Shown here: piece after piece, positions 25,154 to 41,429 of the stretch
Numbering within the stretch: position 1 is the first letter of the stretch
Layout: every line of letters starts with the position of its first letter
NCBI RefSeq assembly: GCF_001956045.1
Contig: NZ_MRTH01000007.1
Coordinates: 248,001-312,000, forward strand
Length of the DNA: 64,000 nt
Reading direction: 5' to 3'
DNA from: Paenibacillus sp. FSL H7-0331
Lineage (GTDB): Bacteria > Bacillota > Bacilli > Paenibacillales > NBRC-103111
Translations under genes and position numbers: made by a program
Notes under the pieces: generated by a model
The model's input: only the letters and a program-made list of their open reading frames with translations
The model's database searches: none
Told to the model about the DNA's origin: nothing

Positions 25154-25188
25154 AAAGGAGCCTGCTACCGTACTTCAGTGGCCAAGCT
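25137..25188 (-). repeat. Left part of a split ssrA-type terminator repeat, ending in the AAGCT target duplication
   Basis: 25137-25183 matches 36140-36186 with few differences, including the terminator arm (AAAAAGGAGCCTGC) and CGTACTTCAGTGG. AAGCT at 25184-25188 is repeated at 29502-29506 on the other side of the inserted element. Removing 25189-29506 rejoins a complete terminator plus ssrA 3' end. Confidence 0.85.
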
Positions 25189-25194
25189 TGTGAC

Positions 25195-25327
25195 TTGAAT
25201 CATAATCTTGCCGTGCGTTGATGCATATAATTGCCGAAAATCTATGTATAAAGACAATAAATCATTAGTAGGATATGTCTGAAGCATATTTTTGCCTAAA
25301 GTTCCTAGTTGAAGCATTTCGCTGCCA
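25195..25327 (+). repeat. Four 19-nt repeats at the left end of the element
   Basis: Direct copies at 25195-25213, 25218-25236, 25279-25297 and 25309-25327, all variants of TTGAAGCATAWTYTTGCC. The first lies within the terminal inverted repeat. Confidence 0.7.
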
Positions 25328-25652
25328 ATAGTTCTTGAATGACACGTGTGTGTGGAAATAATAAATATATTAGATTAGACTGATCATTAAGCTATCGAAC
25401 GGGCAGATTAAGATACATGATTATGTTAAAAACCCCACTCTATGTGGTAATCATTTCGTATATGGTTTATTCCTGGTATTTAAAAGAAAGAGGACCCCTA
25501 AAATCAATTTTGTTTTCTTTTTCTTGGATAATGTTAAGTCCCAAGATGGAAAATTGAGATTTGGGCCCTTTTTTGTTCTTTAATGACTTCGACGGGAAAA
25601 GCATCGCTACAGTTTCACAAAAGCCAAGTATTTTGTACATATTTCCACGCAT
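25328..25652. other. Non-coding left arm of the element
   Basis: AT-rich stretch between the end repeats and the ger promoter. I find no supported gene. A short minus-strand frame here has no ribosome site and is probably chance. Confidence 0.4.
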
Positions 25653-25683
25653 TGAATAATGTGAGGCAATTAATTCCATAATA
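25653..25683 (+). promoter_or_regulatory. Sigma-G (forespore) promoter of the ger operon
   Basis: TGAATA (25653-25658), an 18-nt spacer and CATAATA (25677-25683) match the sigma-G consensus TGHATR-N18-CATWHTA at every defined position. Germination receptor operons of the gerA type are known to be transcribed by sigma-G in the forespore. Confidence 0.75.
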
Positions 25684-25716
25684 ACTCTAACGTTTTTAGT
25701 GGAAGGTGATTCATTC

Positions 25717-27144
25717 ATGACTCATACAGAAATAACGACAGGCTCTCTTCACCAACTACTAAGTAACATGGATGATGCCGAATTTATCGAGGCCCGTGCT
25801 GCATTGGGGCGTAAAATAAGCCTTTACTATATCAGAACCTTAATTGATCAGGAGCGGTTGAATGAAGTCGTCGTAGAGCCGTTGGTGCGTGATCCTGATC
25901 GAGCTGCTATCCAATGTCTGGCCGCTTCAAAGGTAATCACCATATCCAGATTGGAAGAGGCGCATAAGCAGTTGCTGTCCGGAGCGGTCGTGCTTAACGA
26001 TACGGCGACTGATATTTGGCTTGCTGTACCTCTTGAGAACCCATTAAGTCGCTCTGTTGAATCCTCGGAGACGGAAACGATCATTTACGGAGCAAAGGAC
26101 AGTTTTAGCGAGCAAATTGAGCAGAACATCACCATGATCCGCAGGCGGCTTCCCTTAGCTGAATTGAAGACGGAGAAGTTCACGGTGGGAACTCTAAGCA
26201 AGACTACACTCATGCTCATGTACATGGACGGATTGACGAATCCCGAGTTTATTGAGACGGCCAGGAGTAAAATCAGCAACATTGACTTCGATCAATTCCT
26301 TGATTCCTCCCAAGTTGCCGCATTTATGGAAGACCATCATCATACAATTTTTCCTCAGTTTTTGGAGACTGATCGTCCTGATGCATGCGCTAATGCGCTG
26401 GGTATCGGAAAGTTAGTTATTCTTGTGAACAATACGCCCTATGCTTTGATCGCACCCATTACCTTTTTTCATCTGTTTCAATCTCCAGAAGATTATTTTC
26501 TTCGCTGGCCTGTTGCCAGTTTTTTTCGCTGTATTCGATATTTCGGCTTCTTTCTTTCGGTTGTGCTCATGCCTTTCTATGTAGCACTGGCCACCCACCA
26601 TTATCAAATGCTGCCTCTTCAAATCCTTTATGTATTGCTGGAATCTCGGAGTAAGCTGCCATTCTCGCCGTTCTGGGAGGCGTTCATTATGATGATCACT
26701 CTGGAGATCATCAAAGAAGCCAGTCTACGTATGCCAACTAAAACGAGTCAAACCCTCGGCATCATTGGCGGTATCGTGATGGGTCAGGCCGCTGTACAGG
26801 CCGGATTTGCGAGCAAAGTATTGATTGTTTTCATGGGCATTTCCGCAATTTCCTCGTTCTTGGTTCCCAATTATCTAATGACGAGATCCAGCACACTCAT
26901 CCAATTTGTTTTTCTCGTTCTTTCTGCCTTTCTAGGCATTCCTGGAATCATAATGGGGATTATTGTGTTCCTCATTCATTTGAATGGACTTTCCTCCTTG
27001 AAGCAGCCCTTTTTCGCACCGGTATCACCGTTTTATGGGAAGGAATGGTTCGACTTATTCATTCGAGGACCGTTGACTTGGATGAAAACCCGTCCAGAGT
27101 CTTTACGCCCTCTCCAGATCTGGCGTTACAGTAAAAGGAGATGA
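25717..27144 (+). CDS. Spore germination receptor subunit A (GerA/GerKA family)
   Basis: A 475-residue GerA-family protein (PF03323 type). A soluble N-terminal half (DIWLAVPLENPL, RSVESSETETIIYG) precedes four or five membrane segments (FFLSVVLMPFYVAL, LGIIGGIVMGQAAVQAG, LVLSAFLGIPGIIMG). The ATG at 25717 has GGAAGGTGAT seven bases upstream; an earlier GTG overlaps that site. The A, B and C subunits form an inner-membrane spore receptor for small germinants such as amino acids or sugars. It is the first gene of a complete three-gene operon carried within the inserted element. Confidence 0.92.
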   Translation: MTHTEITTGSLHQLLSNMDDAEFIEARAALGRKISLYYIRTLIDQERLNEVVVEPLVRDPDRAAIQCLAASKVITISRLEEAHKQLLSGAVVLNDTATDIWLAVPLENPLSRSVESSETETIIYGAKDSFSEQIEQNITMIRRRLPLAELKTEKFTVGTLSKTTLMLMYMDGLTNPEFIETARSKISNIDFDQFLDSSQVAAFMEDHHHTIFPQFLETDRPDACANALGIGKLVILVNNTPYALIAPITFFHLFQSPEDYFLRWPVASFFRCIRYFGFFLSVVLMPFYVALATHHYQMLPLQILYVLLESRSKLPFSPFWEAFIMMITLEIIKEASLRMPTKTSQTLGIIGGIVMGQAAVQAGFASKVLIVFMGISAISSFLVPNYLMTRSSTLIQFVFLVLSAFLGIPGIIMGIIVFLIHLNGLSSLKQPFFAPVSPFYGKEWFDLFIRGPLTWMKTRPESLRPLQIWRYSKRR

Positions 27145-27148
27145 AAAA

Positions 27149-28270
27149 TTGAAGAACTTGTCTCTATTTGAGAAAACATCAACCTATGGTGGCATTTATA
27201 TCATGTTTATTGTGAACCGGCTGCAGACACTTTATTTCATGCTGATTATGCCTACTTATTTGGTACAACCGTATATGATTTGGGGGATAATTGCTATCGG
27301 CATATTGTCGCATTTGAATCTAGTGCTGTTGTTTAAGTGGTTATGTTCTGAGCGTTCTGCCAAAGGATTTGAAGGCTTTGTGGAGTTATTCGGTTCGAAA
27401 TGGATTCGATTTTTCGCTTTTATCGGGTTGATTCCGATTGGAATGAAGATCATCGTTATTACGATAGGTTATACGGAAATGATCCAAAAATTTATTTTTC
27501 CCTCAATGGATCTGAAGGTGCTCCTTGGATTGATTGTAGCTCTTAGTGCATACGTAGTTTCACAAGGCATGGAGAAAACAATCCGCTTCGTGACCGTCGT
27601 ATTTTTCAGCGCAGTTTGGATCATCCTGGTCTTCATCCCGGTGTTGTATCTGCCTACGGCATTTCCGTATGAGTTGTTTCCGTTGATACCAACTGATGGG
27701 TCTGATTCAATGTGGAAAAAGTTGTTGTTCCTGTGGTCCTCTTTGTCAGGTCCGGAATATTTGATTTGTTTGGCACCCTGGCTAGATCTTAAGCGTAAGG
27801 AACGGATATTTGCATCCATAGCTAACGTAATGTCCGTACTTGAATACTTGTTTATGTTCGTAGTTTCGCTGTTATTTTTCGGTGCTGCTTACCTGAAGGA
27901 GGTTCAGTTTCCAGTTGTTAAAATAGCAAGTTACTTTCAATTCCCCCTCTTTGAACGAATTGACGTGATCCTGATCTCAATGCAAATGTTCAATTTCGTT
28001 TTCGCCATAGCCATTTTTTTACTGTGTTTTTATGGAGCAGTCCGTATTGCGACAGGCAGGCATCAGAAAAAGAAACCGTCTACCCGATTTGGATTGCTTA
28101 TCTTGTACTTGACCATCTTTACAGTAATGTTGATTGTCGTGAAATTGATCTGGACAGACGTATTTAGGCAACACGTGCTCATTTCGATTCAGATCTGGCT
28201 TGGGGCATTCACTTATCTTGTTATCCCGGGCTTATTGTTGATTGCTAATAAGCGAAAGGGGGTTGCCTAG
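27149..28270 (+). CDS. Spore germination receptor subunit B (GerB-family permease)
   Basis: A 373-residue membrane protein of the GerAB/amino-acid-permease fold with about ten helices (YGGIYIMFIVNRLQTL, LLGLIVALSAYVVSQG, VLEYLFMFVVSLLFFG). It starts with TTG at 27149, behind AAAAGGAG. Four bases separate it from the A-subunit stop. In characterised receptors the B subunit binds the germinant. Confidence 0.9.
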   Translation: MKNLSLFEKTSTYGGIYIMFIVNRLQTLYFMLIMPTYLVQPYMIWGIIAIGILSHLNLVLLFKWLCSERSAKGFEGFVELFGSKWIRFFAFIGLIPIGMKIIVITIGYTEMIQKFIFPSMDLKVLLGLIVALSAYVVSQGMEKTIRFVTVVFFSAVWIILVFIPVLYLPTAFPYELFPLIPTDGSDSMWKKLLFLWSSLSGPEYLICLAPWLDLKRKERIFASIANVMSVLEYLFMFVVSLLFFGAAYLKEVQFPVVKIASYFQFPLFERIDVILISMQMFNFVFAIAIFLLCFYGAVRIATGRHQKKKPSTRFGLLILYLTIFTVMLIVVKLIWTDVFRQHVLISIQIWLGAFTYLVIPGLLLIANKRKGVA

Positions 28271-28273
28271 AGA

Positions 28274-29377
28274 ATGCGAACATTTAGATGGATTTCTATC
28301 TGCTGTATATGGATTCTTACGCTGTTGACGACAGGATGTTCTACCTTTGTTGAAAATAATAAAATCGAAGAAATTGCCCCAGTAGTTTTCTGGTCGTTAC
28401 GTCAAGGGGAAAATGGGAAAGTCAAAATTAGCACGCTTGCCCCTCCTCTGATTAATGAGAAGAAGCGTCTGCTCTCCCTTCAGGTTGACCTCCTCAAGCT
28501 TGGAAGCAAGGATTTCAATTTCAAGTATTACCGGGAGTTAAAGAACGCCCAAATACGGTTGTTGATGATTGATGAGGGGTTGGCAAAGCAAGGAATCCAT
28601 TCGCTAATCAACACCCTATCGCTCGATCCCGAAATATCATCGCGTCTTTATCTCGTCGTGACTAAGGGGAACGTTGAAGATTACATTAACAGTCAGCTTG
28701 AGAAACAGGAGGACCTGGATTTCTTCATTTATCTACTTTTCAAACACTATGAAGCCAATAATGAAGGTGTCATCACGGTTGTCAATCTGCATGAATTTAT
28801 CAAGAAACTCTATTCGCCATATGCGAGCCCGATCATGCCAGTATTTAAGGTTAGTAAGGAAGATTTCACCTATGAAGGAACTGCCTTCTTTCAGCGAGAC
28901 CGGCTGATAACAATCGCCAAAGCGATGGATGAACAAGTATTTCAATTATTTAATCACCATCATTACGCAAAACTGCTTTCGATACCAGAGTTATCGGTAG
29001 GCATTGGTCACATTCGTTTGAAACAAAATTGGAGTATCCAGCCAGATCGTACATCAACAAAACTAACAGTTGATTTGCATGGCAGCATTGAGGAATATCG
29101 CGGGGATAAAGACATAATGAATCCTGAAGAAGAGGTGCAGTTGAACAGAGAGATCCAAACGAGACTGGAGATTCAAACGAAGGAACTCCTAACTAACATG
29201 CAGCGGTGGAAAGTGGATCCACTCCAGGTTGGAAATAGGACGTTGAGACCGTTCGCGAGGCCAGTCAGTGAACAACAGTGGTTTAATGATTGGGAGCATA
29301 TGAAGATCGATGTCTCTTACCGAATTCATTTACACACACTGATCAGCTTGAAAACATCATCATTAATGTCTCCATAG
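28274..29377 (+). CDS. Spore germination receptor subunit C (Ger(x)C lipoprotein)
   Basis: A 367-residue lipoprotein. Signal peptide MRTFRWISICCIWILTLL with lipobox TTGC (Cys22). Features of the family include the N-terminal half preceding VEDYINSQLEKQEDLDFF and the C-terminal ending with PVSEQQWFNDWEHMKIDV. It lies 3 bp after gerB. It is anchored on the outer face of the spore inner membrane and completes the receptor. The C-terminus is a little short, and its end lies 124 bp inside the right end of the element. Confidence 0.88.
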   Translation: MRTFRWISICCIWILTLLTTGCSTFVENNKIEEIAPVVFWSLRQGENGKVKISTLAPPLINEKKRLLSLQVDLLKLGSKDFNFKYYRELKNAQIRLLMIDEGLAKQGIHSLINTLSLDPEISSRLYLVVTKGNVEDYINSQLEKQEDLDFFIYLLFKHYEANNEGVITVVNLHEFIKKLYSPYASPIMPVFKVSKEDFTYEGTAFFQRDRLITIAKAMDEQVFQLFNHHHYAKLLSIPELSVGIGHIRLKQNWSIQPDRTSTKLTVDLHGSIEEYRGDKDIMNPEEEVQLNREIQTRLEIQTKELLTNMQRWKVDPLQVGNRTLRPFARPVSEQQWFNDWEHMKIDVSYRIHLHTLISLKTSSLMSP

Positions 29378-29396
29378 CAAGCTGATTGTAATCGGC

Positions 29397-29416
29397 GAGC
29401 ACCGGCGGCTCTTTTG
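29397..29416 (+). terminator. Possible terminator of the ger operon
   Basis: GAGC, a seven-base loop and GCTC, followed by TTTTG. The stem is only 4 bp, so this is weak. Confidence 0.35.
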
Positions 29417-29427
29417 TTTATCAATTT

Positions 29428-29495
29428 TTGAACAATTTCCTTGCCGTAGGTTTTTTGAAGCATATAGCTGCCAAAACGGCAGAATTATGCTTCAA
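29428..29495. repeat. Three 19-nt repeats at the right end of the element
   Basis: Direct copies at 29428-29446 and 29455-29473 and an inverted copy at 29477-29495 that forms the terminal inverted repeat. The second and third copies together form a palindrome able to fold into a hairpin. Confidence 0.7.
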
Positions 29496-29501
29496 GTCAC
29501 A

Positions 29502-29646
29502 AAGCTCCTGTTCGTTTTCTGGATTTGCAGTATGGAGACGAGGGGAGTCGAACCCGGTGAGCTTCCGCTTTGCTCCTTTTTAAGGCTACACGGTGTCCAT
29601 AACACCACATATGCTTCTATGGTGCAATTACGGTTTTGATCTCACC
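29502..29646 (-). repeat. Degenerate ssrA 3'-end fragment (copy 2) with right half of its terminator
   Basis: After the AAGCT duplication the sequence rejoins the terminator arm and a TTTGCAGTATGGAGACGAGG junction also seen at 36211-36230. 29533-29555 is identical to the last 23 nt of the resident ssrA. A non-matching stretch of about 40 nt interrupts it, and ssrA-like sequence resumes to about 29646 (TACGGTTTTGAT). It is too damaged to be a tmRNA. It marks an old att-like boundary. Confidence 0.8.
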
Positions 29647-29670
29647 CGTATCGTTTCCTCTCATCACGTC

Positions 29671-30825
29671 TCACTGGCCGCAACATTTCTTATACTTCTT
29701 CCCGCTCCCGCATGGGCAGGGCTCATTCCTCCCCACTTTAACAGACACTGCTTGCTGGTCAAGATATATAACATTGTTATTATTTGTTTTCTGACTGGAG
29801 CTCGAACCTAGCTCGGCAGGTGTATGCCCACGATTAGACCATATTCTAGTATGATTATAGACATCTATAATCAATGGTACAATCGCCTGTAGTTGCTCCT
29901 TTGTATTGAAACGAATATTTCTTCGCTCAAACTCATCCATAATTGCGGCTATCGGCTCTTCCATAGAGCAAGCAAGTTGAATATCATCCACAAGGGATTC
30001 TACAAGCAATTTATCCCTGCATAGATGCTGTAAAATATATGTATACAAATTGTCCAACTGAGGAGTCTTTTCGAAATAATCCGACTCTGCGTAATTTAGA
30101 AACTCCTGCTTGTCTGGAATATAGTAAGGTTTATCCTTAGCCCCCTCAAGAAGTGCAACTTTCTCATCTTTGTTATCGTAACCAAAATACTCATCGATGA
30201 CATCGCCGTGTTTTAAGTACCATGTCTGAGCCCTACCTAAAATCTTTACATAAACACTATAAAACTCGGTCTCAGTCAATTGACACTTATTTTGTGAATT
30301 GAAAATTTCAATGACCTTATCCTGTGGACAGATCCCATATAAATTAGCTGATGCATTGATATACTGTAAAATTAACTGTAAGCGGTCACGGTCTTCAAGG
30401 AAAGCTTCCAGCGGCATGCTGCGATATGCTTCCTTGATCTCCTCAGGAATTAAGAAGTACATCTTCTCTTCTTTATAAAAAGAATAAAGCAGACCTTTCT
30501 CCATCAAAAACAAATACATCCCTGGATACATCGTGTCATCCTGAACATAAGGAGCTTTTAGAAGCCTATCTATTAATTTCCACTCCTCAGTTTTTGCAAT
30601 TAATAAGGCAGCTCTCACTACATTGACATCCTTAATGTGCTGATAAAGCGCATCTGCAAGGTCCTGCTTCTTCATCTTGGATCGACCTGGAAGCTCGTAA
30701 CGGGAAGCAAGTAAACTTAATCGCTCCTTTGTAAGGACTTGCAGATTATCCTTCAGCTTTGTTGTAACCTCACCTTTTATCGCATGCTGGATGTTCAATT
30801 CTCCTACTTTTTTTGCAAAATCCAT
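29671..30825 (-). CDS. SEC-C motif protein, function unknown
   Basis: A 384-residue protein ending in the zinc-binding SEC-C motif ([18 protein letters not shown]), as found at the C-terminus of SecA and in many stand-alone proteins. The rest is helical with no domain I can name; a short stretch ([25 protein letters not shown] cut here to its SAP-like core) resembles a SAP-type helical hairpin near residue 40-65. The start at 30825 is chosen because AAGGG lies nine bases upstream. The gene ends 25 bp from the degenerate ssrA fragment, so it lies at the very end of that segment. No partner is obvious. Confidence 0.75.
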
Positions 30826-30990
30826 TCTCATTTCCCTTCTTCTATTCATTTAATATAGCTATATTGTATCTTATCGTATTGAAAATTTAAATTGAAACAA
30901 CTCCCAATTAGAGTTAATTATCCAATGACAAATAGGTTGTATACTTTACATATATCATCACGCATCCAGCAAAAGAGAGGAAACTAAACT

Positions 30991-31620
30991 ATGGGGATTC
31001 ATACGTATTTCCAATCACTAACCGATTTAGAGAGAATTATCCGTTGCCCAGGCAAATTCAAATTTCAGGAGCACAGTGTATCTGCTCATTCCTGGAAGGT
31101 AGTGCAATATGCCAAAACATTGGCTGATATTGAAGAAAGTAATGGAGTCGTTGTGGATTGGAAAAAACTATACGAAATAACCAGTAGTCATGATTACGGT
31201 GAAATTTTTATTGGAGATATTAAAACACCTGTGAAGCACTATTCACTGGAGCTGCGAGCCATGCTGCAAAAAGTAGAAGAAGGCATGGTCGCTCATTTCA
31301 TTGATGATCATATTCCACAAGAATTCCAGCACATTTTTCGCAGACAACTGCGTGAAGGCAAAGACGATTCAGTAGAAGGAAAAATATTGGAAGTCGCTGA
31401 TAAACTCGATCAGATCTACGAGGCCTTTACCGAGCTGCAGCTAGGGAATACAGAAAAAGAATTCATCATCATGTATCGAACTGCTCTTATAAAAATTAAA
31501 GGGATAAAGCTCCATTGTGTTAACTATTTTCTTCATCATATTTTACCTGATATCGTTAGTGAAGGATCAAGATCACCTATCGATATTGAAAAGATTACGA
31601 ACGAGGCCTTAGCGTCATAG
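30991..31620 (+). CDS. HD-domain hydrolase, YfbR/5'-deoxynucleotidase-like
   Basis: A 209-residue HD-superfamily protein. Metal ligands are visible as His33, His67-Asp68 in SSHDYGEIF and a later Asp in EVADKLDQIYEAF. The pattern EHSVSAHSWKVVQYA followed by HDYGE..IGDI resembles COG1896 phosphohydrolases acting on deoxynucleoside monophosphates. GAGAGGAAACTAAACT precedes the ATG with a good ribosome site. It is divergent from the SEC-C gene across 165 bp. A role in nucleotide pool control is inference. Confidence 0.8.
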   Translation: MGIHTYFQSLTDLERIIRCPGKFKFQEHSVSAHSWKVVQYAKTLADIEESNGVVVDWKKLYEITSSHDYGEIFIGDIKTPVKHYSLELRAMLQKVEEGMVAHFIDDHIPQEFQHIFRRQLREGKDDSVEGKILEVADKLDQIYEAFTELQLGNTEKEFIIMYRTALIKIKGIKLHCVNYFLHHILPDIVSEGSRSPIDIEKITNEALAS

Positions 31621-31832
31621 GTGTTGCACTTCATTTCAAGCTTGATTTATTATTGTGTTCCATCTGGCATTCCAACCTGATTAATTCCCACCTCCTATCT
31701 CCTCAATCCATGCAAAAAAACAGCGACAAACTCCACTCACTGATGACAACCTTAGCAGAACATGCTCTTGCCATCTCCTCCGTTCTCACATCATTCCGCG
31801 CGGTCCGCCCCCTTGACCAGGTGCCAATAATG
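31621..31832. other. Gene-free stretch downstream of the HD gene
   Basis: I see no gene, RNA or repeat that I can support between the HD stop and the hairpin at 31833. Confidence 0.35.
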
Positions 31833-31870
31833 CAAAAGGCACCGGCCAAATGGTCAGTGCCTTTTGCTTT
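31833..31870. terminator. Intrinsic terminator, symmetric
   Basis: CAAAAGGCAC (31833-31842) pairs with GTGCCTTTTG (31857-31866), with an inner GGCC/GGTC stem. T-rich on the plus strand (31861-31870) and on the minus strand. It probably ends the HD gene. Confidence 0.75.
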
Positions 31871-31930
31871 TATGGAGACGAATCGTGGCTGGGCAAATCC
31901 ACAATTCACCGCAGCGTAATACTGAAGATT

Positions 31931-31973
31931 CTTGAGGAGACCACTTAAGCGCACTTAAGCGGCTCCCTCAAAG
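31931..31973. repeat. Imperfect palindrome downstream of the SLH gene
   Basis: CTTGAGGAGACCACTTAAG and its near complement across a CGCA centre. It lies 34 bp after the SLH stop (minus strand) and could act as its transcription end, though it has no T-run. Confidence 0.45.
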
Positions 31974-32006
31974 CAACGGTATCGATTGTTTAATTGTTAT
32001 TTGCTT

Positions 32007-35000
32007 TTACTCAGCAGCATGATCGATTGATGCTTCCTGAATTTGTCCAAACGCCCAGTGATCATTCGGAACATCCGACCATATAGCGGCCATAGTGGTT
32101 AACGGCCCTCGACCTAGCAACCTATTGATCATCGCAACCACCTCTGCACGCTTCAATGTCTGCTCAGGACGGAACGTACCGTCCGCATAACCACTGATGA
32201 TGCCAGTCGCTTTCAATTGCTCAATGGCTGTTTGTGCCCAATGCCCTTTTACATCCGGAAAGCTTTCGCCGCTGCTTGGGGTGTTGCTTGACAATCGAGA
32301 TAAGATCACTGCAATTTCAGCACGGGTAATCATCTGCTCCGCTTTGAAACTTCCATCCTCATAACCTTCCATCAAGCCCATTTTCGTCACTTGCTCGATA
32401 GCCTCTTGGGCCCAGTGGGTCGAAGCGACATCAGTGTAAGTGAAGTGGGTTTTGTTGGCTGCTTTCTCGAATGCTCTGAACAGCAGGGTTGCCATTTCAG
32501 CGCGGGTAATGCTTTTTTCCGGACCGAATGTACCGTCGGGATAACCGGAAATATACGCTTTGTGCTGCTTCTCCGTTTCTGGCTTCACGTCTTCCATTTC
32601 CACATTGACTGTGCTCGGTTCATTGACTGTAATCGGTTCACTTTGCTGATAGCTGTCGCTTCCTCCGGAAGAAGACGACTCCTGCAATCTCAATTCGATG
32701 GAGGCGGTAATTGCTGTCGCCGTCTCATTGCCTGCTGCATCCTTGAGCTTCATGTACACCGTTTTGGTGCCGATGCCTACTGATAATGTCCATGGCTTCG
32801 TTCCGGCAACCGGCTCCCACGCGCTCCAGGTCACCTCGTCGTTGGAGAACGACATCTGGACATTGCCTGTTCCTGGAACGGATGGAGGCAGCGCAGCTGC
32901 CAGTTTCATGGAAGCAGCCAGTTCCCGCAGGATCAAATCGTTAGTTGATGCAAGCCATATCGGCTGCTTTTCCGCTTTAGTATAAATAGCTCCTATCCCA
33001 TCAGGATCTTCGCCTGTCACCGTCAGAGTAACCAATACCGAGTTCGTCGTCGTCACTCCGCTGTTAATGCTTAATGTTCCTGCAGGAGATGTTTTGTCGA
33101 AATTCACACTGTTACCACTGCTGTCCGTTGTCGTATTCACTGTTTTACTTGCACCGCCGGGAGCACTTGCAGAGAAGTAAATAAGTACATCCCCTTCGCT
33201 GTCACTAGCCGTGAACGTACGTGCTGCACTGTACACGTTGCCGCTAACGCTCGTGGCGGGTATTGCAGTCCCAAAACCACCGATGTATACGTTCGGAAGA
33301 GCACTAAGCTCTCTATTAGACGTAAACGTCACGGTCACGGTGTCGCCTACTTTAGCAACTCCAGCCATGGGATTGCTGCTCAATATGCTATTCAACATCA
33401 CATCCAGAGGCGTTGCTTCCTGCAATTCGATGGAGGCGATAATTACTGTCGCCGTCTCATTGCCTGCTGCATCCTTGAGCTTCATGTACACCATTTTGGT
33501 GCCGTTGCCTGCTGATAATGTCCATGGTTTCATTCCGGCAACCGGCTCCCACTGGCTCCAGGACACCTCGTCGTTTGAGAACGACATCTGGACATTGCCT
33601 GTTCCTGGAACGGATGGAGGCAGAGCAACTGCCAGCTTCATGGAAGCAGCCAGTTCCCGCAGGATCAAATCGTTAGTTGACGCAAGCCATATCGGCTGCT
33701 TTTCCGCTTTGGTATAAACAGCTCCTATCCCATCGGGATCTTTGCCTGTCACCGTCAGAGTAACTGATACCGTGTCGGTCACCGCCGCTCCACCGTTAAT
33801 GCTCAATGTTCCTGCAGGAGATGTTTTGTCGAAATTCACACTGTTACCACTGCTGTCCATTGTCGTATTCACTGTTTTATTTGTAACGCCTGGAGCACTT
33901 GCAGAGAAGTAAATAAATACATCCCCTTCGCTGTCATTAGCCGTGAACGTACGCGCTGCGCTGTACACGTTGCCGCTAACGCTCGTGGCCGGTATTGCAG
34001 TTCCAAAATCACCGATATATACGTTCGGAAGAGCGCTAAGCTCCCTATTAGACGTAAACGTCACGGTTACGGTGTCGCCTACTTTGGCAACACCGGCCGT
34101 CGGATTGTTGCTCAATATGCTGTTCAACGTCACATCCAAAGGAAGCACGCCCTTGGTTAAGGTAACCGTGACGGCATGTGCTGCATCTTTGATCGATTCG
34201 ATTCCGTTATCGGTTGCGGTGATAACAAACTTATAGGTTCCGGCGGTTAAATCGCCGATGTTGGCCGCGGCCACCGATCCGTTCGCACCGCTCGTTCCAA
34301 GAGAGATGGCCGGTCCTAACTCACCGGGATCAATTGTGCCATTGGAGTTGCTATCGGTCCATAAATAAGCTTTTACGGGCAAGTTTGCTCCTACTGCATT
34401 CACAGCGCTTTGGAGCTTGTCCTGCGTTCCCGTGTAGTTGTCTACAACGGCAAATTTAGAAGCATCGACATCGGATTGGAGCGTTATCGAATGGCCGCTA
34501 ACATCGACCCAGGCACCAGCTGCAGGAGAAAAATTTATATAAACCAAAACCTTATAATCGCCTCCGGTCAGTGGAATTCCCGTGCTGTCCCGAGTATCGG
34601 TGGAAGAGCCTGTCCAATTCCAAACATTCAGATCGTCGATCCCGTAAGGGATAGGAGATTTGTTGATAGGCTTATCGCTAGCAAGATCAGGAATCCGTGC
34701 CATTATTGATGGCAAAATATAAATATCAAACGTATAGGTCTCTCTATCCAGATTATTGCTATAGTGATGTTCCACCCATTCAACGGAAATATCTCTGCCG
34801 TCAATACCAGCATGAGTCTGATCATTGTCTGTTGCATTACCGGCGGCGGCCGTCCCATAGGCTGCAAAGCCCAGTTGAAGTTCTGTTTGATCCGCCGCAA
34901 TTTCCAGGTTTGTTAAAGGAATTTGGTACTCGTATACTTTATGCTGATAAGATACCTTGTCTGTATACGTAAAAAATTGTTGGCCCCAGGTCGTTTCGGG

Positions 35001-35798
35001 AACGGATACCTTAAATTCCTTGACGCCGGAGTTCGTTTTCACATAAACCTTCGTATAGTCCGCATCCCCGTCAAATGTATTGTCAGGAGTAAAGTCAATG
35101 ACGACATACAAATTTTCATCGTCATTCCATACCCATCCATACGTTACACCATCCGGATGACCGGAATCCGGTACGGTATACTGCTGAAAGAACGGCGCTT
35201 GCAGAGAGATCTCATTTATTTGCCCGTCCATTACGAGATTTCCCCGAGAAGAGTTAATTGGATAGGTATAATACTCGGAATTGAGATCAAAGTCCTTATA
35301 TAAATTGCTGGTTGGATAATGAAAAGGAATGGTGCTAATGACTTCCGGTTCAACACGCGCATCTATTTTTAAAATACTGCTGGGATTACCGCTAGCAAAC
35401 TTCAAGATCATGCCGGATACTTCGACATTGATTAAATCTTGGTCTGCAGCAGCTAGCTTGCGAACAGATGTAGCTGTATCCCCGTTAACCTCGATTGGAG
35501 ATTGAATTCCAAGTAAAACGGAATCAAGATGTGATTTTCCGCCTCCTTGCTGCAGCACCCTGATTAACGCGGGCTCGTCTGCCTGGGTGCCGTTGAGTTG
35601 AAGCGATTTTTCAGAAACAAACCGACCGTAAGGCAGCGAACCCTGCTCGATCCATACTCCGTCTACTAAAACCGAAACTGCCAGTTCTCCGTAATCTACA
35701 TTACGATCAGCATGTGCCGATCTGCTCCAAAAAGGAAGCAAACATAGTAGGGCTGTAACAAGTAGCAACAAACTTTTTTTCATACTTATATTGAACAT
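32007..35798 (-). CDS. Large SLH-anchored surface protein with tandem Ig-like repeats
   Basis: A 1263-residue exported protein. The signal peptide (MKKSLLLLVTALLCLLPFW, ending SAHA) is followed by a CBM9/DOMON-like beta domain at about residues 165-330 (MDGQINEISLQAPFF, DENLYVVIDFTPDN). Two nearly identical units of about 243 residues follow (PLDVxLNSILSxNPxAGVAKVG ... GNETAT), separated at about residue 797. Three SLH domains close the protein (ISGYPDGTFGPEKSITRAEM, MEGYEDGSFKAEQMI, ISGYADGTFRPEQTLKRAEV), which bind pyruvylated cell-wall polymer. A good ribosome site (AGGGGG) precedes the ATG. No enzymatic motif is seen, so it is probably a surface adhesin or binding protein. It lies between two ssrA fragments. 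Confidence 0.88.
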   Translation of the reverse strand: MFNISMKKSLLLLVTALLCLLPFWSRSAHADRNVDYGELAVSVLVDGVWIEQGSLPYGRFVSEKSLQLNGTQADEPALIRVLQQGGGKSHLDSVLLGIQSPIEVNGDTATSVRKLAAADQDLINVEVSGMILKFASGNPSSILKIDARVEPEVISTIPFHYPTSNLYKDFDLNSEYYTYPINSSRGNLVMDGQINEISLQAPFFQQYTVPDSGHPDGVTYGWVWNDDENLYVVIDFTPDNTFDGDADYTKVYVKTNSGVKEFKVSVPETTWGQQFFTYTDKVSYQHKVYEYQIPLTNLEIAADQTELQLGFAAYGTAAAGNATDNDQTHAGIDGRDISVEWVEHHYSNNLDRETYTFDIYILPSIMARIPDLASDKPINKSPIPYGIDDLNVWNWTGSSTDTRDSTGIPLTGGDYKVLVYINFSPAAGAWVDVSGHSITLQSDVDASKFAVVDNYTGTQDKLQSAVNAVGANLPVKAYLWTDSNSNGTIDPGELGPAISLGTSGANGSVAAANIGDLTAGTYKFVITATDNGIESIKDAAHAVTVTLTKGVLPLDVTLNSILSNNPTAGVAKVGDTVTVTFTSNRELSALPNVYIGDFGTAIPATSVSGNVYSAARTFTANDSEGDVFIYFSASAPGVTNKTVNTTMDSSGNSVNFDKTSPAGTLSINGGAAVTDTVSVTLTVTGKDPDGIGAVYTKAEKQPIWLASTNDLILRELAASMKLAVALPPSVPGTGNVQMSFSNDEVSWSQWEPVAGMKPWTLSAGNGTKMVYMKLKDAAGNETATVIIASIELQEATPLDVMLNSILSSNPMAGVAKVGDTVTVTFTSNRELSALPNVYIGGFGTAIPATSVSGNVYSAARTFTASDSEGDVLIYFSASAPGGASKTVNTTTDSSGNSVNFDKTSPAGTLSINSGVTTTNSVLVTLTVTGEDPDGIGAIYTKAEKQPIWLASTNDLILRELAASMKLAAALPPSVPGTGNVQMSFSNDEVTWSAWEPVAGTKPWTLSVGIGTKTVYMKLKDAAGNETATAITASIELRLQESSSSGGSDSYQQSEPITVNEPSTVNVEMEDVKPETEKQHKAYISGYPDGTFGPEKSITRAEMATLLFRAFEKAANKTHFTYTDVASTHWAQEAIEQVTKMGLMEGYEDGSFKAEQMITRAEIAVILSRLSSNTPSSGESFPDVKGHWAQTAIEQLKATGIISGYADGTFRPEQTLKRAEVVAMINRLLGRGPLTTMAAIWSDVPNDHWAFGQIQEASIDHAAE
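32690..34146 (-). repeat. Tandem duplication of about 730 bp inside the SLH gene
   Basis: Two adjacent units, about 33415-34146 and 32690-33414, keep long identical nucleotide stretches, including the segment coding for KAEKQPIWLASTNDLILREL. Differences are scattered and mostly single bases, indicating a recent duplication or conversion. Confidence 0.8.
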
Positions 35799-35854
35799 AT
35801 TTTCCCCCTGTAACCATTATTGATGTCGTGTCTCTGAAAACATGGATTTCCCAT
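35786..35854 (-). CDS. Possible 22-codon leader peptide overlapping the SLH start
   Basis: An ATG at 35854 follows AGAGGAGG at 10 nt, a stronger ribosome site than that of the SLH gene. The reading frame MGNPCFQRHDINNG... stops at 35786, 13 bp inside the SLH coding sequence. Translation of it could open or block the SLH start. No family is recognised; evidence is the signal and position only. Confidence 0.35.
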   Translation of the reverse strand: MGNPCFQRHDINNGYRGKICSI

Positions 35855-36139
35855 TATTCCTTTTCCTCCTCTAAGTAAAAGTTTCCCCACAGTTCCAGTT
35901 CCCGCTTTATCCGATTGAACCGCATAAATGGCTACACGATGCAAATGGTGGATTAATGTTAATTTGGGCATTTTTTCTAGATGCGGTCACTGAATTGGTT
36001 TCAATGCTTGATAGTATAACAGAGCACTATGAAAGAATTCTGAAAGATCATTACCATTGCATTGACTTTAATCCGTTCTGAAAACAGCCCAAAAGTGAAA
36101 CACCCTCTTACCTATTATTTCTAAAATGTTCCTCATCGC
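35855..36139. other. Leader and promoter region of the SLH gene
   Basis: An extended -10 element TGTTATACT (minus strand; hexamer at 36013-36018) could drive the SLH gene with a leader of about 210 nt. No -35 box is clear. I see no gene in this stretch. Confidence 0.35.
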
Positions 36140-36300
36140 CGATGCCGTGTAACGTAAAAAGGAGCCTGCCACCGTACTTCAGTGGCAAAGCTCCTTTTCG
36201 TTTTGTAGATTTGCAGTATGGAGACGAGGGGATTCGAACCCCTGTCCGAAGATAACAGCACACAAACTTCTACGAGTGTAGCTACGGTTTTGATGTCACT
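36140..36300 (-). repeat. ssrA 3'-end fragment with terminator (copy 1)
   Basis: 36219-36299 matches the last 81 nt of the resident ssrA with six substitutions, keeping the T-loop and acceptor strand. It is followed on the minus strand by a strong terminator at 36156-36198 (AAAAGGAGC pairing with GCTCCTTTT). The 5' two-thirds of tmRNA, including the tag frame, is missing, so it cannot act as tmRNA. Copies like this are what integration at the ssrA 3' end leaves behind. Confidence 0.85.
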
Positions 36301-36371
36301 TGGGAGTTACTAGAATTAGTAACGACCTGACTTTCCATTGCTTCCAAATCACTCAGTGCATGATCATACAT

Positions 36372-37019
36372 TTAGGAGAAGCGAAAGGCTTGTCTTCTCA
36401 TCCACATCGTTGCAACCCACTTTTCCCCTTTAATCACTGGCGTACCTGCATGCAAGGTGAAGTCGTTTAATTCATGATTATTATAAAAATATTCGAAGTA
36501 GACCGCCATGCCTTTGTTAGGAACAATAGAAAAATTAAGCATGGGGAACGCCGTTTCCCCGCCTTCCTCCACATCATTCAAATACATCACGAGCGTACTA
36601 ATTCGATTGTTGGCACTTGCTCGACTCGTTTCTGTGAAGAAATCATAATGAGGACGATACTCTTGGCCAGGGGTATACAGCAGAACTTGCAAGCCATCAC
36701 TATGCTCGACAGGAATATTCATAATTTGAGAGAGTCGCTTCTCGATTCTTGTAATCGTCTCATTCTCCTCACAGAACACTCCACTACTCGTTCTAATTTG
36801 ATTGACCGCATGATCTTCGCCTATTTTTGAACGTTGCAATTGTTGCCTAGAATGTTTTATTAGCTCATCGCATTCCTCATCGCTAAGCACATTTCCTAGT
36901 ACGACAATCAGAGGTGCCTCATACTTGGCAAGAATTCGAATCTCTCGATCTTCTGTCTTGATCGTATTTCCAGCATGATCAAATATCGTCCGTTCTTTCT
37001 CTGTCGTACTCCCTATCAT
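36372..37019 (-). CDS. Prolyl-4-hydroxylase-like 2-oxoglutarate/Fe(II) oxygenase
   Basis: A 215-residue member of the P4H alpha-subunit family. The iron triad is His124 and Asp126 in YRPHYDF and His190 in TLHAG; Lys200 in IKGEKW binds 2-oxoglutarate. GGETAFP and the N-terminal VLGNVLSDEECDELI are typical of bacterial homologues such as the Bacillus anthracis enzyme, which hydroxylates proline in peptides. No signal peptide is seen. It is the only gene between the resident ssrA and the first ssrA fragment, so it was probably acquired with an ssrA-targeting element. Its protein substrate is unknown. Confidence 0.88.
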   Translation of the reverse strand: MIGSTTEKERTIFDHAGNTIKTEDREIRILAKYEAPLIVVLGNVLSDEECDELIKHSRQQLQRSKIGEDHAVNQIRTSSGVFCEENETITRIEKRLSQIMNIPVEHSDGLQVLLYTPGQEYRPHYDFFTETSRASANNRISTLVMYLNDVEEGGETAFPMLNFSIVPNKGMAVYFEYFYNNHELNDFTLHAGTPVIKGEKWVATMWMRRQAFRFS

Positions 37020-37302
37020 TCTTATACTGCCCCTATACTATGACATCACCATAAAACACGATACCATAAAATGGAGTCCTTTACTCTACAAATTTCAGAA
37101 AAATCAAAATAATTAAACTTTATAGCATTGGTGGAGGCAAGGGGAGTATCGATATTCAGATTTAAGTCGCTCCCGTTGCTCGCTCAACGACGGCTACCTT
37201 AGCGGTGAATATCGAGTCTGCAATCCCTTCGCTTACGCTGCGGCACGTGCGGACTGAACCTCTGACAGGGGCAACTCCCTGTCTTTCCTTTCCACACAAC
37301 GC
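37020..37302. other. Short intergenic segment between oxygenase gene and ssrA terminator
   Basis: This must hold the oxygenase promoter, which I cannot place with confidence. GACAGGG and CCCTGTC (37264-37283) form a perfect 7-bp hairpin followed by TTTCC on the plus strand. No gene is supported. Confidence 0.35.
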
Positions 37303-37344: not shown

Positions 37345-37707
37345 TGGAGACGAGGGGAGTCGAACCCCTGTCCGAAGATAACGGCACACAAGATTCTACG
37401 GGTGTAGCTACAGTTTTGATGTCACCTTAGAAGCGCCCCGTAACCGGCTCTCCTTCAGGTCAGCCTGATTGTCTTCTTCCGATTGACCCCAGGCGGAGAC
37501 CAAGCGGCGTATCCCACTTAAGGTTGAGCCCCTATCCTAACACATGGGTGATGCGAGGTAGAAGCACGCACACAGTTTCTTAGGCTGCGAAAGCGTAGTT
37601 TTGTTGTTGTTTGCCGTTTAATAGGCTTTAGCGTTGATAAAGCGGACGCGTCCCCACTACCCGCTACTCATGCTCGAACTATCCCCGTCGAATCCAAGAA
37701 CGTCCCC
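37345..37707 (-). ncRNA. ssrA: tmRNA (transfer-messenger RNA)
   Basis: A 363-nt tmRNA. The 5' end GGGGACG pairs with the 3' CGTCTCC to form the acceptor stem; the T arm GGTTCGACTCC is intact; CCA is not encoded. The tag frame (37580-37615) starts at GGC after TTAAAC and reads GKQQQNYAFAA then TAA, to be preceded by the tRNA-borne alanine. The YAFAA-type end is a ClpXP-type degradation signal. It rescues stalled ribosomes together with SmpB, whose gene lies 164 bp upstream. Its 3' end is the parent of the two fragments at about 36.2 and 29.6 kb. Confidence 0.97.
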
Positions 37708-37871: not shown

Positions 37872-38351
37872 CTAACGAGCAACCTTTTGCTTCTCGCGTA
37901 GCACTCTTTGAATATCACGTTGTGCATCACGTTTCGCAGCGGTATCCCGCTTGTCATATTGCTTTTTACCTTTACCCAAACCAATGAGCAGCTTGGCAAA
38001 ACCGTTGCGCACATATATTTTCAAAGGTACGAGCGCATAACCGTCCTGCTTAGCCAAACCGAACAGCTTGCGAATTTCCACTTTTTTGAGCAGCAGCTTT
38101 CGTGCTCTTGTCGGGTCCGAAGGATTATGACGATTCCCCTGCTCGAAAGGACTGATATGAATGTTGTGGATGAAAGCTTCACCATTACGAATGGTAGCAA
38201 AAGCATCTCCGATATTGGCTCGTCCCAGACGAAGTGATTTGATCTCCGTTCCGGTCAACACAATACCACATTCATAGGTGTCCTCAATAAAATAGTCGTG
38301 GGAAGCCTTTTTGTTTTGTGCAAGCACCTTGCCATCCGCTCTATTCCCCAT
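37872..38351 (-). CDS. smpB: SsrA-binding protein SmpB
   Basis: A 159-residue protein of normal length. It has the OB-fold signatures [30 protein letters not shown] residues ([16 protein letters not shown]) and [17 protein letters not shown], and a basic C-terminal tail ([19 protein letters not shown]) that occupies the empty mRNA channel. It binds tmRNA and brings it to stalled ribosomes. AAGGAG lies 15 nt before the ATG. It is read just after rnr on the same strand, as in most Bacillota. Confidence 0.97.
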
Positions 38352-38459: not shown

Positions 38460-41429
38460 CTACTTTTTCGTTTGCTTACTCCGCTTACGTGGCTGCCCGC
38501 CCCCATCACCCTTCGCTGCCGCATCCAGTGCACGTGCTTTTGCAGCATCTACACCAGTACCTTTGCCAGCAGCGACAGTACTACCTTTACTCGCGCGCTT
38601 TCTGCTGCTCGATTCACCTGAACCACCTACATCGGCTCCAGCTGGCCCCTCACCGCTCAATGAGATGCCATTTATACCCTTGCTGCTGCGCTTCCTGCCG
38701 CTCGCTGCACTCGTGCCACCTAATGATACGCCTGTCGAACCCTTGCCGCTACGTTTACCAAAGGCTACACCTTCACCGCCTGCAGCTGCACCAGATTTGC
38801 CTTTACTCTTGCGCTTTCTGCTGTTTCGATCACCGGTTAATCCCGCTAACGCCTTGGCTCCTCGCTTGCTGCTGCTCCACCCATCATTTGTTATGCCTTC
38901 ATCGCCAACACTTGCACCGTCTTGGACACTGGATCTCCTCAGGCTCGCCGAGCTCGTCGTACCTTCACTTGCTGAGCTCGCATCAGCTGCATTCGCTCGA
39001 GCACCGCGCCAGCCGCTTGCTCCTTCCAAGCCTGTTCCTTGGCTGCTGTCCACTTTTGCACTTGCTCTCGCACTGCTAAAGCTACTATCCGCCTTCGCCT
39101 TACCTTTACCGCTGCCTTTGCCGCTGCCGCTCGCTACAGCACCGCCTTTGCCTCGCTTGCCGCCGCGAGCGCCCTTAGCTGCTCCCACACCACCGCGACC
39201 GCCTGCTCCACTACCTGCTTCGCCACGACGACCTCCGCGTTTATCCCCTCGTCGAACCGCCTTCAATGCGTCGATCAAGCCGATCTTCTTCTGACGCGGC
39301 TGCATATCGACCATCTCGAAGTCGATCGTATGCTCCTCCGTACTTACACGTGCAACCCACACCTTAACCTCATCACCAAGACGGTATACCTTGGAGGTTC
39401 GCTCCCCAATTAGAGCCAGCTGCGCCTCATGATAATGATAATAATCATCATGCATATCGCTTAAGCGGATAAGACCCTCTACCGTGTTATCCAGCTCCAC
39501 AAAGATACCGAAGCTCGTTACACTGCTGATCATTCCTTCGAATTCCTCGCCAACCTTATCCATCATGAATTCGGCTTTCTTCAACGCCTCAGTCTCACGC
39601 TCCGCATCTACAGCGACACGCTCACGCTCTGAGGACTGCTTGGCGATATCCTCCATCCGGCTCGATAAATATTCATGCCGCTTCGCTTGCATATCCCCTT
39701 GCTCCAATACCTCGCGAATAACACGGTGGATAATGAGATCCGGATAACGCCGGATCGGAGAGGTGAAGTGAGAGTAGAATTCTGCTGCCAGACCAAAATG
39801 TCCTGTACTCAGGGCATCATATTTGGCCTGCTTCATCGAACGCAACATGACCGTGCTGATAACCCGCTCTTCTTTGGTGCCTTTAATCTCATTAAGCAGC
39901 GATTGCAGAGCCTGAGGATGTACCGTATTGCCTCTACCGCGCACCGTATAGCCGAAGTTCGTAATGAATTCCATAAAATGCTGCAGCTTCTCATTATCCG
40001 GGTCTTCATGAATCCGGTATAGGAAAGGTACTTTCAACCAATGAAAATGCTCGGCAACCGTCTCGTTCGCCGCTAGCATAAATTCTTCGATAATTTGCTC
40101 GGCAACCGAGCGTTCTCTTTTCACAATGTCTGTAGGCTTACCACTCGCATCGACCAGAATCTTCGACTCTTCGAAGTCAAAATCAATCGCGCCGCGCTTC
40201 ATCCGACGATTGCGGAGCTTACTAGCCAGATCCTGCATCAAACGAAAATCATCCATCAAATACGCGTAACGTTCAAGCAGTTCGGCCTCCGGCTCGTCAG
40301 ACAACAGCTTGCGCACATTCGTATACGTCATCCGCTCACTTGTCTTGATTACACTGGTAAACACATCATGGCGTACAACCTTCGCATGCTCATCAAATTC
40401 CATCTCACAAGACATCGTCAGCCTGTCCACCTGCGGATTCAATGAACAAATCCCGTTCGACAGCCGATGAGGCAGCATTGGAATGACACGATCCACCAAG
40501 TACACACTACAGCCCCGATTATAGGCTTCCCGATCCAGTGGAGAGCCTTCACGCACATAATAGCTAACATCAGCAATATGCACACCTAGTACGTAATTCC
40601 CGTTATCCAACCGCTCTACATTAACCGCATCATCCAGATCCTTGGCATCCTCGCCGTCAATCGTAACAATACGTTTGCCGCGCAAGTCACGTCGTCCGGC
40701 CAGATCAGATTCGGCAATCACCTCAGGAACCGAAGTCGCTTCCTCCAATACCTCTTCAGGGAACGATTCTGGCAAGCGATGCTTGCGAATAATCGAAATA
40801 ATATCGACACCCGGATCATTTTTGTGTCCGAGAATTTCGATCACTTCGCCCTCCGCAGCCGCACGACCTTCTGGATAGGACAAAATGTTAACAACTACCT
40901 TATGCCCATCCATCGCTCCATGGAAAGCTTCCTTAGGAATAAAAATATCTCGTCCTATCCGCTTATCATCCGGCAGCACAAAAGCGTATCCCTCATTCAT
41001 CTGGAACAACCCGACGATCTGCGTGTTAGCCCGGGTAACCACCTTGGCTACCTCACCCTCCAGCTTTCCTCCGGCCGCTCCTCTGGTTGTAATACGAACC
41101 AGAATGGTATCTCCATTCATTGCGCCGCCCATATCGTTTGCATGAATATAGACATCCGGGTGATCACGATCCTCAGGAATAAGGAATCCAAACCCTTTGG
41201 CATGCGCCTGCAGTCTACCTCGCAATAAATTCATGCGTTCCGGTATTCCATAACGTTCCGTTCTGGACCTTACGATATGGCCCTCATTTTCCAATTCATT
41301 CAATAGCTTGAGAAAGCTTTTAAAATCCTGTGCACCTGTAATCTGAAACTGCTTCTCCAGCTCCTGGTAAGTCATCGGTTTATAATCCGTATCATGCATA
41401 TATTCCAATACTTGTTCACGTTGAATCAA
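38460..41429 (-). CDS. rnr: Ribonuclease R with exceptionally long basic low-complexity C-terminus
   Basis: A 989-residue 3'-5' exoribonuclease. N-terminal helix-turn-helix (about 1-60), two cold-shock domains (about 70-220), the RNB domain with catalytic acidic residues in TIDGEDAKDLDDAVN, and an S1 domain (EFEGMISSVTSFGIFVELDN) ending near residue 720. After that come about 265 residues of Gly, Ser, Ala, Lys and Arg, including repeated SGKGS/SRKRSSKG blocks. Usual bacterial RNase R proteins are about 700-820 residues with a much shorter basic tail. The start is TTG at 41429 behind AAGGAGG. RNase R degrades structured RNA, rRNA and, with SmpB-tmRNA, faulty mRNA; the tail may bind ribosomes or RNA (inference). 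Confidence 0.95.
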   Translation of the reverse strand: MIQREQVLEYMHDTDYKPMTYQELEKQFQITGAQDFKSFLKLLNELENEGHIVRSRTERYGIPERMNLLRGRLQAHAKGFGFLIPEDRDHPDVYIHANDMGGAMNGDTILVRITTRGAAGGKLEGEVAKVVTRANTQIVGLFQMNEGYAFVLPDDKRIGRDIFIPKEAFHGAMDGHKVVVNILSYPEGRAAAEGEVIEILGHKNDPGVDIISIIRKHRLPESFPEEVLEEATSVPEVIAESDLAGRRDLRGKRIVTIDGEDAKDLDDAVNVERLDNGNYVLGVHIADVSYYVREGSPLDREAYNRGCSVYLVDRVIPMLPHRLSNGICSLNPQVDRLTMSCEMEFDEHAKVVRHDVFTSVIKTSERMTYTNVRKLLSDEPEAELLERYAYLMDDFRLMQDLASKLRNRRMKRGAIDFDFEESKILVDASGKPTDIVKRERSVAEQIIEEFMLAANETVAEHFHWLKVPFLYRIHEDPDNEKLQHFMEFITNFGYTVRGRGNTVHPQALQSLLNEIKGTKEERVISTVMLRSMKQAKYDALSTGHFGLAAEFYSHFTSPIRRYPDLIIHRVIREVLEQGDMQAKRHEYLSSRMEDIAKQSSERERVAVDAERETEALKKAEFMMDKVGEEFEGMISSVTSFGIFVELDNTVEGLIRLSDMHDDYYHYHEAQLALIGERTSKVYRLGDEVKVWVARVSTEEHTIDFEMVDMQPRQKKIGLIDALKAVRRGDKRGGRRGEAGSGAGGRGGVGAAKGARGGKRGKGGAVASGSGKGSGKGKAKADSSFSSARASAKVDSSQGTGLEGASGWRGARANAADASSASEGTTSSASLRRSSVQDGASVGDEGITNDGWSSSKRGAKALAGLTGDRNSRKRKSKGKSGAAAGGEGVAFGKRSGKGSTGVSLGGTSAASGRKRSSKGINGISLSGEGPAGADVGGSGESSSRKRASKGSTVAAGKGTGVDAAKARALDAAAKGDGGGQPRKRSKQTKK

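Follow-up and report, generated by a model that had tools for sequence, protein, structure and literature searches.

How has a complete germination receptor operon come to lie between a pair of transposon-like ends where no transposase is found? The locus that raises this question occupies positions 25189-29501 of a 64,000-nucleotide stretch of Paenibacillus sp. FSL H7-0331 (contig NZ_MRTH01000007.1, positions 248,001 to 312,000), hereafter the window. A first-pass annotation of the sequence had described it as a transposon-like unit that carries a complete ger operon, lacks a transposase, is bounded by a 5-bp duplication and has a relative of its target within the same stretch. Our analysis supports this description and supplies the two parts that had been missed, namely the family (Tn7-like, with a TnsA-TnsB fusion, TnsAB) and the target, the 3′ end of a transfer-messenger RNA (tmRNA, gene ssrA). 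The block is most probably a non-autonomous mini element of the TnsA-TnsB-fusion Tn7-like family that was inserted in trans near a tmRNA 3′ end.

The block measures 4,313 bp and has a copy of AAGCT directly outside each end, constituting a target-site duplication of the length typical of the Tn7-like family. Its 27-nucleotide ends (25188-25214 and 29476-29502) are complementary at 24 of 27 positions, and when the 200-bp regions at the two ends were searched for inverted repeats of 25 nucleotides, the best pair matched at 22 positions, whereas none of 60 base shuffles exceeded 18. The termini are of the TGT..ACA type and, as in other Tn7-like elements, contain ordered arrays of binding-site-like motifs. 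The end repeats reported by the first-pass annotation are present, together with further internal copies (25218, 25279, 25309, 29428 and 29455) that it had recorded only in part. Single motif matches are weak when taken alone, with seven in the window against 2.64 expected.

Three long, intact genes lie between the ends and encode, in order, the A, B and C subunits of a GerA-type germinant receptor, as judged by their Pfam domains: GerA (5e-148), Spore_permease (5e-19) and the N- and C-terminal domains of Spore_GerAC. Upstream of gerA, a match to what we take to be the sigma-G consensus occurs once in 64 kb, against 0.02 expected, and suggests a promoter of the sigma-G type; the receptor itself is predicted to be functional. 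Two shorter reverse-strand frames inside the element have no Pfam match. Queries with TnsAB, TnsC and two TniQ proteins gave no match anywhere in the 64-kb window (tblastn, E 1e-3), and Pfam detected none of these proteins in the element, which is therefore claimed only as a non-autonomous derivative. Cascade and Cas12k genes are not among its long genes, which are gerABC only; no search for CRISPR arrays was made.

The element has split a tmRNA-like 3′ end in its terminator region. Once the block and one AAGCT are removed, the joined flanks form a gapless alignment with 36140-36241 in which 94 of 102 columns are identical (computed by script). The first-pass annotation had read this relative as an internal empty-site control; the match stands, but the relative is a paralogous target copy and not an allele, because it is a second degenerate copy of the tmRNA 3′ end and terminator. 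All three tmRNA sequences of the window share one orientation, and the copy that starts at 29533 is more decayed than the one at 36216-36428. Counted to the base that matches the 3′ end called by ARAGORN, 31 bp separate the R terminus from the decayed copy, so that the element shows the R-end-proximal insertion at a fixed distance that is also seen in its relatives. The coordinates of these features are collected in Table 1.

Table 1. Features of the element, its cargo and the tmRNA sequences of the window
Feature	Position	Strand	Remark
Left copy of the 5-bp target-site duplication, AAGCT	25184..25188		From sequence
Left (L) terminus, TGTGACTTGAATCATAATCTTGCCG	25189..25213	+	Same over 25 bases in Halalkalibacter urbisdiaboli TnsAB element (L293)
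Transposase-binding-site-like motif L1	25195..25212	+	Offset 6 from terminus
Binding-site-like motif L2	25218..25235	+	Offset 29
Binding-site-like motif L3	25279..25296	+	Offset 90
Binding-site-like motif L4	25309..25326	+	Offset 120
Sigma-G-like promoter upstream of gerA, TGAATA-N18-CATAATA	25653..25683	+	Pattern match
gerA-type gene, GerA PF03323	25717..27144	+	Start ATG inferred; frame open from GTG at 25699
gerB-type gene, Spore_permease PF03845, 373 amino acids	27149..28270	+	Pfam
gerC-type gene with both Spore_GerAC domains (N and C), 367 amino acids	28274..29377	+	Pfam; lipobox-like LTTGC visible
R-end motif R3	29428..29445	+	Weak, 3 mismatches to motif pattern; offset 56, inverted
R-end motif R2	29455..29472	+	Offset 29, inverted relative to terminus
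R-end motif R1	29478..29495	-	Offset 6
Right (R) terminus, inward reading, TGTGACTTGAAGCATAATTCTGCCG	29477..29501	-	From sequence
Right copy of AAGCT	29502..29506		From sequence
Degenerate tmRNA 3′ portion adjoining R end, presumed target	29533..29650	-	Weak cmscan match at 29543-29555; end coordinate approximate
Uninterrupted target-like copy, terminator and tmRNA 3′ end	36140..36241		94/102 identical to joined flanks
Degenerate, truncated tmRNA copy	36216..36428	-	Rfam 27.3 bits, cut-off 47
Native tmRNA gene ssrA	37345..37707	-	Beside smpB (37872-38351) and rnr (38460-41429)

Full-length relatives that carry a transposase were found in Paenibacillus sp. Soil750 (G151), Peribacillus acanthi L28 and H. 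urbisdiaboli, the search of named genomes for TnsAB covering the best 80 of 271 relatives. In all three, TnsA_N, rve and Mu-transpos_C domains reside in one protein, accompanied by TniB/AAA and two TniQ proteins (Pfam). L and R ends could be paired for a 26.5-kb element in Soil750 and for a 34-kb element in G027, the latter with a TnsAB-type transposase (of which only the larger part of a broken gene was scanned), TnsC and two TniQ (Pfam). The P. acanthi locus reads rnr, smpB, ssrA, 31 bp, R end, TniQ, TnsAB, TnsC, TniQ, and H. urbisdiaboli shows the same order of TniQ, TnsAB, TnsC and TniQ (Pfam); its L terminus is the one identical to that of the window element, and its R end falls beyond the stretch examined. 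In H. akibai, an R end lies beside a TnsAB match. For comparison we used the Nostoc record 'Peltigera membranacea cyanobiont' 210A, which we take to be the source of the type I-B2 CRISPR-associated transposon PmcCAST. The TnsAB proteins of Soil750, H. urbisdiaboli, P. acanthi, G027 and Nostoc are 42-76% identical in pairwise comparisons, with the Nostoc protein at 45-46% to the other four. Queried with the Soil750 protein at E 1e-3, 26 of 104 Paenibacillaceae genomes gave matches, and only five (G151, G079, G100, G027 and G067) reached at least 45% identity.

The arrangement of motifs is shared as well. R-end motifs at offsets 6 (inward) and 29 and 56 (inverted) are common to the window element, P. 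acanthi, H. akibai, PmcCAST, Soil750 and G027, and L-end motifs lie at 6 and 29 in the window element, Soil750, G027 and H. urbisdiaboli, followed by motifs at 90 and 120 in the window element, 93 and 124 in Soil750 and 94 and 124 in G027; the motif used for these offsets is loose, giving single off-register matches in some elements and leaving a few ends without one site. TnsAB of the Tn7-like fusion family is predicted to recognise the ends of the window element. Tn7 elements with a separate TnsB (such as the TnsABCD locus L023; TnsB matches occur in 44 of 147 genomes) were considered as a source and dropped, because the 40 stretches scanned around TnsB matches (20 + 20, some of the matches weak) yielded neither the R-end pattern, even with 6 mismatches allowed, nor any convincing array of motifs. 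The ssrA-homed element of Soil750 (L110 5189-8893 and L166 3041-9233) also carries a Gabija-like pair, with an OLD-like ATPase/TOPRIM protein and a UvrD-like helicase, and type I restriction genes encoding HsdR, specificity and methylase domains.

The spacing between R end and target recurs in other genomes. Measured to the tmRNA end called by ARAGORN, the R terminus lies 31 bp away in Soil750, G027, P. acanthi and G145 and 29 bp away in G290, while the R end of L016 is 29 bp from a tRNA-Ser gene and that of the PmcCAST locus 31 bp from tRNA-Val. A pattern requiring an R end 26-36 bp from TGGNGNCG matched five of 392 genomes, and its control none. Three of the five (G027, G145 and G290) have the R end next to a called tmRNA, and G069 has it next to an uncalled tmRNA-like sequence whose terminator is similar to that of the window; at the fifth, G071, no tmRNA is called. 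R-end-like matches in G064, about 200 bp and not 31 bp from a tmRNA, and in G236, with no tRNA or tmRNA within the 20 kb examined, were not counted as homing. Since most R ends examined have no called tRNA or tmRNA nearby, ssrA homing describes only a part of the Tn7-like family with these ends. Among known relatives, passages of PMC10293859 place the I-D transposon CyCAST 30-33 nt downstream of a tRNA, and passages of a review (PMC11406308) state that the TnsAB-fusion group uses different tRNA genes.

Some elements of the family contain tmRNA or tmRNA-like sequence. The 34-kb ssrA-homed element of G027 has its own complete tmRNA directly inside the R end, with the tag GKQQPTYALAA where the adjoining host tmRNA encodes GKTQNNYALAA (the two genes occupying L017 960-1321 and 1447-1808), and tmRNA 5′-end-like sequence was seen by eye inside the R ends of L128 and of G290 (L365). 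Such carriage may explain the stacked tmRNA copies of the window. The region between those copies (29650-37300) encodes a SEC-C protein, a YfbR-like HD protein, a 1,263-amino-acid S-layer-domain protein and a 2OG-Fe(II) oxygenase, genes that are possibly remnants of earlier ssrA insertions. It also contains a sub-threshold Rfam match to the SurA small RNA (31831-31937, 23 bits against a cut-off of 100), which is probably due to chance or to a strong terminator hairpin.

Across the Paenibacillaceae, the R-end pattern, defined as two motifs face to face across 5 bp, is present in 27 of 104 genomes and its reversed control in none. The terminal 25-mer pattern occurs in 7 of 59 relatives (one control match) and the L-end pattern in 13 of 104 genomes; the control for the latter gave two matches, so some L-end matches are due to chance. 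R-end-like matches at L122 and L123 appear by eye to lie in sugar-transport loci and have no paired L end. A tyrosine recombinase gene lies just inside some R ends (L127 8651-9544 and L014 17414-18313 by Pfam; L023 1-225 by eye). Near-identical sigma-K-like gene fragments are scattered through certain genomes (ten matches in G157, a few of them distant; eight in G027), and one lies just outside 4 of 22 R-end flanks tested (L019, L125, L318 and L321); it looks as if sigK or sigK-linked sequence were used repeatedly as a target, or sigK fragments carried.

Pairing of ends was attempted for 61 oriented R-end candidates at 52 loci, which correspond to about 49 distinct places because the motif is nearly palindromic, with the partner sought within 16 kb or the stretch examined. 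A convincing L end together with an exact 5-bp duplication was obtained for five candidates, including the window element, and the control with shuffled duplications yielded 7 of 1073; a further pairing at L325 (score 13, TTTTT) is at the level of this control and was treated as chance. The four additional elements carry genes unrelated to those of the window and come from three related genomes: L114 in G086 (1,001 bp, duplication TGTTC) and L128 in G095 (2,355 bp, GAAAA) encode proteins without a Pfam match, L117 in G095 (2,187 bp, CTCTT) a MarR regulator and an amidohydrolase, and L120 in G001 (5,393 bp, ACAGA) DJ-1/PfpI, DUF2306 and two-component-system proteins. GAAAA also stands on both flanks of the TnsAB-type element of G027. 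No match to TnsAB, TnsC or TniQ was found in any of the five cargo-only loci. The first-pass annotation had proposed to look for these ends in other Paenibacillaceae, for insertions elsewhere with 5-bp duplications and for full-length relatives with a transposase, and each of the three was found.

Relatives of the ger operon are distributed differently from the ends. At E 1e-60, 14 of 104 genomes encode GerC relatives, and related ger operons also occur in Peribacillus frigoritolerans and Cohnella herbarum, where they are plasmid-borne; the GerC proteins of highest identity (77-87%) come from JGI metagenome contigs of up to 13 kb. We surveyed the context of 15 loci, comprising 13 genome loci and the two plasmids and leaving out G010 and a second, weaker match in G060, at which identity to the window proteins is 62-69% for GerA and 43-58% for GerC. 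The 13 genome loci have no clustered end motifs, and the two plasmid loci only isolated motif matches. Flanking genes are seldom common to the ger loci (among the largest 14 groups listed); G060 and G083, of one genus, have several neighbours in common with each other and none with the window. The same operon in the same flanks across relatives, which the first-pass annotation had named as the observation that would contradict it, was thus not found. In G025, a stretch corresponding to the first 49 bp of the window element is present at 94% identity; similarity breaks off at that point, about 400 bp short of the contig end. The ger relatives without the ends, and this element start without the rest, suggest that ends and cargo have separate histories.

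Taken together with the geometry of its relatives, the window element would consist of L and R arrays of predicted transposase-binding sites placed around a germination-receptor operon with its own forespore-type promoter. TnsAB-TnsC-TniQ machinery from another element would most likely have excised the block and pasted it 31 bp beyond the tmRNA-like 3′ end with the R end facing the target gene, duplicating 5 bp. We infer that this machinery acted in trans, and favour such movement over loss of tns genes in place because five short elements carry clean duplications and no trace of tns genes was detected in them. Several observations weigh against this interpretation. The tmRNA-like attachment site of the window is degenerate; only five of the 61 R-end candidates could be paired convincingly; L016, with an AraC regulator and a short-chain dehydrogenase, and the 26.5-kb element of Soil750 have no matching duplication; and no second ger cassette with these ends was found among the 392 genomes, in each of which the best two candidate stretches at most were scored. 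Machinery is also wanting: no TnsAB match was obtained in G001 or G095, which host three of the four other cargo-only elements, and the matches in G086 are only partial or distant, so that the cargo-only elements may be relics. The H. akibai TnsAB match contains a stop, and the TnsAB gene of G027 is broken, for which reason that element may no longer be autonomous.

The main alternative is that a complete Tn7-like transposon with ger cargo homed to ssrA and lost its tns genes by later deletion, never having moved as a small unit. Transposase-bearing elements do home with the R end at the ssrA 3′ end, two of the three genomes that host similar elements have no detectable TnsAB, and the neighbouring ssrA copies of the window are decayed, all of which such a fossil would accommodate. 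Yet the window shows no detectable remains of tns genes, the operon is as intact as the two site arrays, and the four other short elements with clean duplications would need repeated internal deletions that spared both ends; we regard this history as unlikely. Mobilization by a tyrosine recombinase, with AAGCT as a shared crossover sequence, would draw on the use of ssrA as a common integrase target, on tandem tmRNA 3′-end copies, which are typical of integrase islands, and on the recombinase genes just inside the related R ends of L014, L127 and L023. The duplications of the five elements differ from one another, however, which homologous crossover would not produce, the window element has no recombinase, and the same ends bound elements that encode TnsAB, TnsC and TniQ. 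We rejected this origin, which is very improbable, on the differing duplications and the TnsAB-bearing relatives. That the ends, repeats and AAGCT copies are fortuitous and the ger operon simply resident has a negligible probability: AAGCT is short and single motifs do occur by chance at the frequency given above, but the 24/27 inverted repeat, the gapless target copy, the R-end architecture found in 27 of 104 genomes against none for the reversed control, and the motif offsets common to transposase-bearing relatives all oppose coincidence.

The TnsAB-fusion Tn7-like family and its homing to tRNA genes are already known. The window element resembles the TnsAB-fusion transposons of types I-B2 (PmcCAST, Tn7744) and I-D (CyCAST, McCAST) in its TGT..ACA ends, and the PmcCAST locus in its R-end offsets and in the distance of about 31 bp that separates the R end from the 3′ end of a tRNA-like gene. 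It differs from them in lacking tnsAB, tnsC and tniQ, in having gerABC as its only long genes within 4.3 kb, and in sitting at a tmRNA-like site where those transposons home to tRNA genes. End geometry, target and orientation are those of the ssrA-homing TnsAB elements of Soil750, P. acanthi L28 and G027, and the L terminus is common with the H. urbisdiaboli element; unlike the window element, the ssrA-homing Bacillales elements carry TnsAB, TnsC and two TniQ. Mobile insertion cassettes such as MIC231 of Bacillus cereus hold passenger genes between IS231-type ends of the IS4 family, without a transposase. The window element is like them in having passenger genes between transposon ends and no transposase, and in presumably having been moved in trans; unlike those cassettes as described, its ends match Tn7-like elements, with multiple sites and a fixed target. 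Tn1546 belongs to the Tn3 family. Carriage of a spore-trait operon on a transposon is likewise a feature of spoVA2mob, found on Tn1546-like transposons of spore-formers according to PMC5133452, although that operon confers heat resistance and the window element encodes a germination receptor. Among the 5 to 20 best-ranked papers of each literature search, judged by titles, opening parts of abstracts and term counts and drawn from a body of literature that leaves most subscription papers outside, no description of ssrA-homing Tn7-like elements was found, nor of naturally transposase-less Tn7-like cassettes or of germinant-receptor cargo. A term search of main texts found no mention of tmRNA, ssrA or non-autonomous in PMC10293859, of tmRNA, ssrA, spore, germination or non-autonomous in PMC8649781, or of ssrA or autonomous in PMC11406308.

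A broader proposition follows the same lines, which we advance tentatively, as a possibility somewhat short of probable: TnsAB transposons of Bacillales may support a population of transposase-less cassettes, 1-5 kb in size, which they insert in trans at conserved 3′ ends, those of ssrA and tRNA genes among them, germination specificity may be one of the traits to have spread in this way, and repeated use of ssrA may have built the stack of tmRNA copies and cassettes. Germinant receptors decide which nutrients wake a spore, and a self-contained receptor operon on a cassette whose insertion site is conserved and safe would provide a concrete route to swap germination behaviour between species. 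For the Tn7-like family behind the I-B2 and I-D CRISPR-associated transposons, the element suggests the existence of cargo-only dependants in Gram-positive spore-formers, with tmRNA as an attachment site.

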